Part shown: piece by piece, positions 3,186-4,514 of the stretch
Position numbering within the stretch: the first letter of the stretch is position 1
How the letters are laid out: each line of letters opens with the position of its first letter
DNA from: an uncultured Rickettsiales bacterium
GTDB taxonomy: Bacteria > Pseudomonadota > Alphaproteobacteria > Rickettsiales > Rickettsiaceae
Assembly (NCBI GenBank): GCA_903952265.1
Contig: CAJBEU010000002.1
Location: forward strand, 186,001-250,000
Length of the DNA stretch: 64,000 nt
Direction: 5' to 3'
Program-made: the position numbers and the translations under genes
The notes under the pieces: generated by a model
What the model was told of the DNA's origin: nothing
Databases searched by the model: none
What the model saw: only the letters and a program-made list of their open reading frames with translations

Positions 3186-4514
3186 ATGTTGAGATCTTTA
3201 ACGAAAGGATTAAGCAACGTATTTGGTAAAATTGTAGGCAAAAAATCAATAGATGTTGCTGCTTTTGAATCGATATTAAAGGGTATTAGAGATTCGCTTC
3301 TAGATTCTGACGTTGCTTTAGAGGTTGTTGACTATCTTATTAGTTGTATAAGAAGTACCAGTAATCAAAAAGATATTTTATCATCACAAGATGCTTCTGT
3401 CTTACTTAGGCAGATTGTAAAAGATGAGCTAATAAACCTTATATCTGATGGCAAAGACTTTGCTACTTTTGCGCCCAATAGTTTTCCGTGCAACGTGATG
3501 ATAATTGGAAATCACGGAGCTGGTAAAACTACTTCTAGTGCAAAAATTGCTCACTATATAAAAACTCATCAGAAAAAATCAGTTTTACTTGTCTCTTTGG
3601 ATATCTTTCGTCCAGCCGCCCAGCAACAATTGAGCATTTTAGCAAATTCAGCATCTGTAGATTTTTTTACGCCAGAAAATCTCAACATAGATCAGATCTG
3701 TATCGATTCTTTGCAATATGCAAATAAAAACGGATATCAGTTTGTGGTCTATGACACTTTTGGTTCTTCTCATACAGACAGAGATGCACTCGATAGCCTT
3801 TTAAGTATTAAGCAAAAAATTCACCCAAAAGAAGTGCTTTTGATCGCAGATGCACTCACTGGTCAGGATGCTGTAAAATCAGCGAAATGTTTTTCTGATA
3901 CTCTGGGCATTTCCGGAGTTGTGCTTACAAAAATGGACGCAGATTCTAGAGGCGCTGGCGCACTTAGCATTAAGTATGTGACAAAAAAGTCAGTTAAGTT
4001 TATAGGGGTAGGCGAAGACATTAAAGATTTAGAAACATTTAATCCCACAAGCATTGTTCTTCGTATACTAGATATGGGGGATATAGAAACTCTAACAAAA
4101 AAGTTAGAGGACGTAATGGATGTCAAGACCAAAGAGCTTGAGCTGCAAAAAGTTCAATCTGGTAAATTTACTCTTGAAGACTATGAGTCTCATATTATGA
4201 AAATAAGCAAAATGGGGGGATTAAGCAAAATAGCAGGATTCCTTCCAGGAGCTAGTAAATTACTCGATAATCCCGCTTTCAAAGGTGGAGCAGACAAAAT
4301 GCTTATTAGACAACAAAGCATTATCAGGTCTATGACTCTTAAAGAAAGAAAGAAACCTCAAATTTTGACCCATTCTCGTAAAAAAAGAGTCGCAAATGGC
4401 TCTGGTAGAACAATTGCCGAGGTTGATGCACTTTTAAAACAGTTTCAACAGATGTCTGATTTGATTAAGTTAGGTCCAAAAGCTCTCTTCAAAACTGGCC
4501 AAAAGTTATTTTGA
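3186..4514 (+). CDS. ffh: Signal recognition particle GTPase Ffh (SRP54), with an atypical G3 motif
   Basis: Ffh binds signal sequences and SRP RNA and, with FtsY, targets nascent membrane proteins to the Sec translocon. The 442 residues contain the N domain (about 1-95), the G domain with a P-loop GNHGAGKTT (108-116), SLDIFRPAAQQQL and TKMD (248-251), and the M domain. The M domain has GKFTLEDYESHI, a methionine-bearing GFLPGASK loop and a basic RNA-binding segment HSRKKRVANGSG. The odd point is G3. The almost invariant DTAGR is DTFGS (190-194), and the usual Gln of GLQGxGKTT is His. The reading frame is intact, so the gene looks expressed but biochemically divergent. tsaB follows 45 bp downstream. 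Confidence 0.93.
   Translation: MLRSLTKGLSNVFGKIVGKKSIDVAAFESILKGIRDSLLDSDVALEVVDYLISCIRSTSNQKDILSSQDASVLLRQIVKDELINLISDGKDFATFAPNSFPCNVMIIGNHGAGKTTSSAKIAHYIKTHQKKSVLLVSLDIFRPAAQQQLSILANSASVDFFTPENLNIDQICIDSLQYANKNGYQFVVYDTFGSSHTDRDALDSLLSIKQKIHPKEVLLIADALTGQDAVKSAKCFSDTLGISGVVLTKMDADSRGAGALSIKYVTKKSVKFIGVGEDIKDLETFNPTSIVLRILDMGDIETLTKKLEDVMDVKTKELELQKVQSGKFTLEDYESHIMKISKMGGLSKIAGFLPGASKLLDNPAFKGGADKMLIRQQSIIRSMTLKERKKPQILTHSRKKRVANGSGRTIAEVDALLKQFQQMSDLIKLGPKALFKTGQKLF

Follow-up and report, generated by a model that had tools for sequence, protein, structure and literature searches.

The GTPases of the bacterial signal recognition particle (SRP), Ffh and its partner FtsY, share a reciprocal-activation network. 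Through Gln107, Ffh touches the ribose of the GTP bound by FtsY, an Asn of FtsY does the reverse, and the two Arg191 residues are latches whose docking is required for catalysis (PMC517823). Mutants of E. coli FtsY at N302(107) and R386(191) formed stable complexes and failed in activation, single substitutions at 107 or 191 blocked hydrolysis at both sites, and half-site mutants indicated that hydrolysis of one GTP is enough for the complex to dissociate (PMC517823). The same Asn and Arg of FtsY move together around the gamma phosphate (PMC1904258), which provides a structural reason why both might be lost together. Our literature search found neither kinetics of Ffh-side mutants nor a report of a paired loss of the Ffh P-loop and latch residues. 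Residues of this network are numbered here as in T. aquaticus (Taq); the numbering of the protein described below is higher by 3 at the P-loop and G3.

That protein is an Ffh encoded in the window, the whole 64,000-nt stretch of a Rickettsiales genome (family Rickettsiaceae) that was analyzed. Its features are the following.

3186..4514, + strand: ffh, signal recognition particle GTPase, 442 aa; intact ORF, supported by Pfam, NCBIfam, and an AlphaFold model compared with the PDB
3507..3533, + strand: G1/P-loop GNHGAGKTT, residues 108-116; Leu106 replaced by Asn and Gln107 by His (window residues 109 and 110), P-loop Lys and Thr kept
3600..3629, + strand: G2/insertion box DIFRPAAQQQ; catalytic Asp135, Arg138, and Gln144 kept
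3753..3767, + strand: G3 DTFGS, residues 190-194 (gac act ttt ggt tct); Ala189 replaced by Phe and the latch Arg191 by Ser (window residue 194)
3927..3938, + strand: G4 TKMD; guanine-specificity Asp248 kept
3954..3956, + strand: second Gly of DARGG replaced by Ala (Taq 254; window G257A), a change also found in the same-genus Ffh L042
4164..4463, + strand: M domain, for binding of the signal peptide and SRP RNA; PF02978 at 1.3e-27, near-invariant positions kept in 12/12 cases
4374..4406, + strand: SRP RNA-binding motif SRKKRVANGSG, conserved

The preliminary description read this gene as ffh with a conserved M domain, a DTFGS in an otherwise intact frame, and a deviating P-loop, and each of these points was borne out. 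Pfam found the SRP54 N, G, and M domains in order and above cut-off (PF02881, 1.4e-12; PF00448, 6.6e-59; PF02978, as listed). The ffh equivalog TIGR00959 was by far the best NCBIfam model (E 6.6e-124); the score of 414 bits is below the cut-off of 473.2, as expected of a divergent member, and ffh is without a match over the cut-off in 77 of the 344 genomes of the order, incomplete genomes counted in. An AlphaFold model built from a five-sequence input (mean pLDDT 67) matched solved Ffh/SRP54 chains of the PDB, with TM scores of 0.84-0.90 (target-normalized) for the NG domains. The gene is present in a single copy, its product is monophyletic with the Ffh of relatives, and its neighborhood is kept, the order lysC-ffh-tsaB-lepA being common to the window genome (572 kb in 2 contigs, 96% complete, with one Ffh and one FtsY), to the other genome of its genus (G001), and to a genome of the same family (G018). 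By these remaining tests, the window Ffh is a divergent ortholog despite its sub-cut-off equivalog score. Between the window genome and G001, dN is 0.29 for ffh, far below a saturated dS of ~2.6, so ffh is under purifying selection (for ftsY, dN is 0.32 and dS 2.1). Judged from its sequence, the protein is functional and is the only Ffh of a bacterium with a reduced genome.

The window Ffh is changed at 8 of 55 near-invariant columns (L109N, Q110H, A192F, R194S, E204S, V220I, G257A, and E305K). Four of the eight are Leu106/Gln107 and Ala189/Arg191, and none falls in the insertion box or among the 12 columns of the M domain, a clustering in G1 and G3 that argues for more than chance deviation. 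The residues that bind GTP are intact (P-loop Lys/Thr, Asp187 of G3, TKxD of G4, and also GxGE), as are the in-cis catalytic residues of the insertion box. At the two positions characteristic of reciprocal activation, Gln107 and the G3 Arg191, His and Ser are found instead. The alignment shows that the protein has lost the contributions of Ffh to the reciprocal-activation network, namely, P-loop Leu106, Gln107, and latch Arg191. The FtsY R386(191) mutant (PMC517823) agrees with the role in GTPase activation that had been assigned to the lost Arg.

Comparison with the Ffh of relatives, as proposed in the preliminary description, revealed the same loss: the nearest relative has DTAGC rather than the standard DTAGR. 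In G001, whose Ffh is 59% identical to that of the window, DTAGC accompanies GNNG, and in G018 (~0.6 Mb) it accompanies GPQG. The codons suggest a path from Arg (CGT) through Cys (TGT, in G001 and G018) to Ser (TCT, in the window). Since the loss recurs in these independent genomes, it is not an assembly error, and the intact ORF, a dN far below dS, the conserved M domain, and the kept gene order led us to reject a pseudogene as well; we give a minute chance to either a pseudogene or an error of sequencing or assembly.

Our alignment comprised 107 Ffh, taken from a sample of the family and order and supplemented with low-scoring members of the phylum. Leu106 and/or Gln107 is missing from every protein without Arg191 (19/19). 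Gln107 is kept in 88/88 of those having Arg191, and Leu106 is changed in only 3 of them, each time mildly (L106I). The raw Fisher p value of this association between G1 and G3 is 2.8e-18, with relatedness ignored; on the tree, it comes down to two independent pairs (sign test, p 0.5), so few that a tree-corrected test cannot reach significance. We regard the P-loop and G3 deviations as probably one linked trait. The same sequences qualify the earlier statement that DTAGR is nearly invariant: it holds for D, G, and R and not strictly for Thr, which is replaced by Ser in 8 of the 107 Ffh, mostly as DSAGR.

Parsimony places at least two losses on the tree, both inside the order to which the window genome belongs. 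This genome forms one clade with G001 and G018 (support, 98/93), and a single loss event occurred in their shared ancestor. A separate linked loss took place one or more times in a second family (f15) of the order, where it affects the genera g38, g59, g60, g62, g63, and g64, while g61 keeps GLQG and DTAGR. In a survey of 398 genomes of the phylum, which is a sample and not a census, 376 scored above the ffh cut-off, and the low-scoring genomes examined for Ffh all keep GLQG/GIQG and DTAGR.

The partner has largely retained its side of the network. FtsY of the window genome keeps Asn107 and Arg191 (P-loop GTNG, G3 DTSGR), those of G001 and G018 likewise retain Asn107 and the G3 Arg, and GxNG with DT[AS]GR is kept in 11 of the 14 sampled f15 genomes that have an Arg-less Ffh, the G3 Arg being lost in the rest (G136, G139, and G140). 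The loss appears mostly one-sided, affecting Ffh and not FtsY. That the deviations seem linked (19/19), recur in a distant family, and hit Ffh rather than FtsY goes beyond the preliminary description.

The explanation we favor, with a probability of about 0.5, is a working SRP under purifying selection with an asymmetric GTPase pair in which Ffh is impaired. Ffh would still bind GTP and dock on FtsY; its own GTPase site would be poorly activated and would contribute little to activation; FtsY would supply the latch and the trans contact that remain, so that the heterodimer would work asymmetrically. One productive hydrolysis per cycle would then suffice to release the complex. From the lost residues we infer a kinetic effect: either hydrolysis is slowed or the FtsY site does most of it, and E. 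coli probably achieves faster activation, a difference that a cell growing slowly inside a host cell might tolerate. A slowed SRP cycle, as suggested earlier, is plausible. Because a change of FtsY at 107 or 191 blocks both sites in E. coli, those data predict that both would suffer here, and the Ffh-side loss might also disable both sites and not one.

The main rival to an asymmetric pair is drift: in a reduced genome in which selection on fast SRP cycling is weak, the latch residues would have decayed neutrally or at a slight cost, with both sites slow and nothing asymmetric or adaptive about the pair. Carriers in the window lineage are all ~0.6 Mb in size and those of the other family ~0.7-1.3 Mb, the change to Cys seen in G001 and G018 takes one step (Arg CGT to TGT), in keeping with AT-biased mutation, a single further step from TGT gives Ser (TCT), and in f15 the erosion extends to the insertion box, RNA-binding residues, and FtsY. 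However, other small genomes of the order keep DTAGR and Gln107 (e.g., G105, ~0.6 Mb, and G169, ~0.8 Mb), G1 and G3 of the window Ffh carry a cluster of changes that spares the M domain and the insertion box, and FtsY, which is equally diverged overall, keeps its latch. On balance, we consider drift somewhat unlikely.

Other substitutions in Ffh, FtsY, or SRP RNA could also restore activation at normal speed with a different geometry. FtsY position 106, the site matching Ffh L106N, is V/I/L/M elsewhere in the set compared and T in exactly two genomes, those of the window genus, where it is the sole candidate co-change. It speaks for the suggestion of the preliminary description that the partners co-evolved; the DTSGR and GTNG kept by FtsY speak against it, leaving this part of the earlier interpretation doubtful while its identification of Ffh, the motif deviations, the M domain, and the role of the Arg stand. 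Both Ffh of this genus likewise have Ala for the second Gly of DARGG. Nevertheless, G018 has Val106 in FtsY and the normal Gly in DARGG, so these candidate compensations are not shared; no compensating change in the G motifs of FtsY is common to all Arg-less carriers, and no new conserved Arg or Lys near G3 takes the place of Arg191.

The SRP RNA provides a further candidate. The window genome encodes one outside the window (about C1:93304-93385, 82 nt), which has all invariant core bases; it scored 27 bits (E 4e-4) with RF00169, below the gathering score, and 56 bits when the model had been trained on RNAs of relatives together with this RNA itself. The SRP RNA of G018 was missed by Rfam alone and scored 49 bits with the relatives-trained model, G018 not being in the training set. 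The hairpin tip, lying between CAGG and AGCAG, is 1 bp shorter in 6 of the 344 genomes of the order, including the window genome (G000, C1:93335-93354), G001, and G018, all three Arg-less. The other three, G009, G017, and G033, have a normal Ffh; on the tree, one of the two Arg-containing short-tip genera adjoins the Arg-less clade and the other does not. The tip is of full length in some of the f15 genomes with an Arg-less Ffh. The relation between the short tip and the Arg loss is suggestive and not one-to-one, and we judge a compensated pair improbable.

Presence of the RNA also bears on whether the Arg loss follows loss of SRP RNA, as might be thought from the RNA-less chloroplast and mitochondrial SRPs. 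The most eroded Ffh, those of G136 and G139, come from genomes without detectable SRP RNA and lack the M-domain RNA motif; against this, the window genome, G001, and G018 all have an SRP RNA, as does the majority of Arg-less f15 genomes, and the window Ffh has an intact M-domain motif. The latch loss is therefore not a result of RNA loss in the window lineage, for which we rejected this explanation, and we hold it very unlikely overall.

Several SRPs of the order are eroded in other ways. Many f15 Ffh have Glu in place of Asp248 in G4 (TKxE; L131-L134, L136-L139, and L141). In the Ffh of G146 and G142 (L142 and L144), G3 is eroded to DDAVE and DDADK and Gln144 is lost, and L144 is also without Asp135 and Arg138; these two proteins are possible pseudo-GTPases. 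The most eroded SRP is that of G139/G136 in f15 (Ffh L145/L146; FtsY L174/L175), in which the M-domain RNA motif is gone and FtsY has lost its G3 Arg; we found no SRP RNA in either genome, and only these two are without both the RNA and the M motif. In G552, a genome of the same class (~0.9 Mb, rated 100% complete), we found no recognizable Ffh or FtsY, the best match to the ffh profile being a 441-aa frame (L212; E 1.5e-4).

Returning to the asymmetric, Ffh-impaired pair, we tentatively extend it to at least two lineages: in each, Ffh may bind GTP and be hemi-active, with FtsY alone giving the latch and the trans contact, and symmetric reciprocal activation may be dispensable for a living SRP. 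Work on FtsY mutants found 107 and 191 to be needed for both sites, yet on two or more occasions one partner seems to have lost both in evolution while the system was kept. Such natural proteins make an old question testable, namely, whether both GTPases must be activated or one is enough. The order offers a graded erosion series, from a normal SRP to one without the latch and then to one without the latch, RNA motif, and SRP RNA, and this series bears on the simplification of organelle SRPs.

Among known systems, bacterial Ffh/SRP54 (TIGR00959; PF00448 + PF02881 + PF02978) shares with the window Ffh the domain order, fold, single genomic copy, P-loop Lys, catalytic residues of the insertion box, G4, G5, and M-domain RNA motif, as well as the presence of FtsY and SRP RNA. 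In contrast, Leu106/Gln107 of G1 and Ala189/Arg191 of G3, which are nearly universal, are missing from the window Ffh, and it scores below the equivalog cut-off. The E. coli FtsY Class II mutants N302(107) and R386(191) have lost the same structural positions and still form stable GTP-dependent complexes (PMC517823), whereas the window case is a natural double loss in Ffh. Class IV half-site mutants of FtsY, e.g., G455(254)W (PMC517823), have one impaired partner, which is the state proposed for the window. The window Ffh is also altered at 254, but from Gly to Ala, a milder change than Trp, and it differs from Class IV in that its main change is at other residues and in the opposite partner. 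Chloroplast and mitochondrial SRP54 likewise belong to reduced SRPs of bacterial origin in endosymbiotic settings (PMC8321541). The mitochondrial and seed-plant chloroplast SRPs have lost the SRP RNA and the RNA-binding motifs (PMC8321541), whereas the SRP of the window genome has both.
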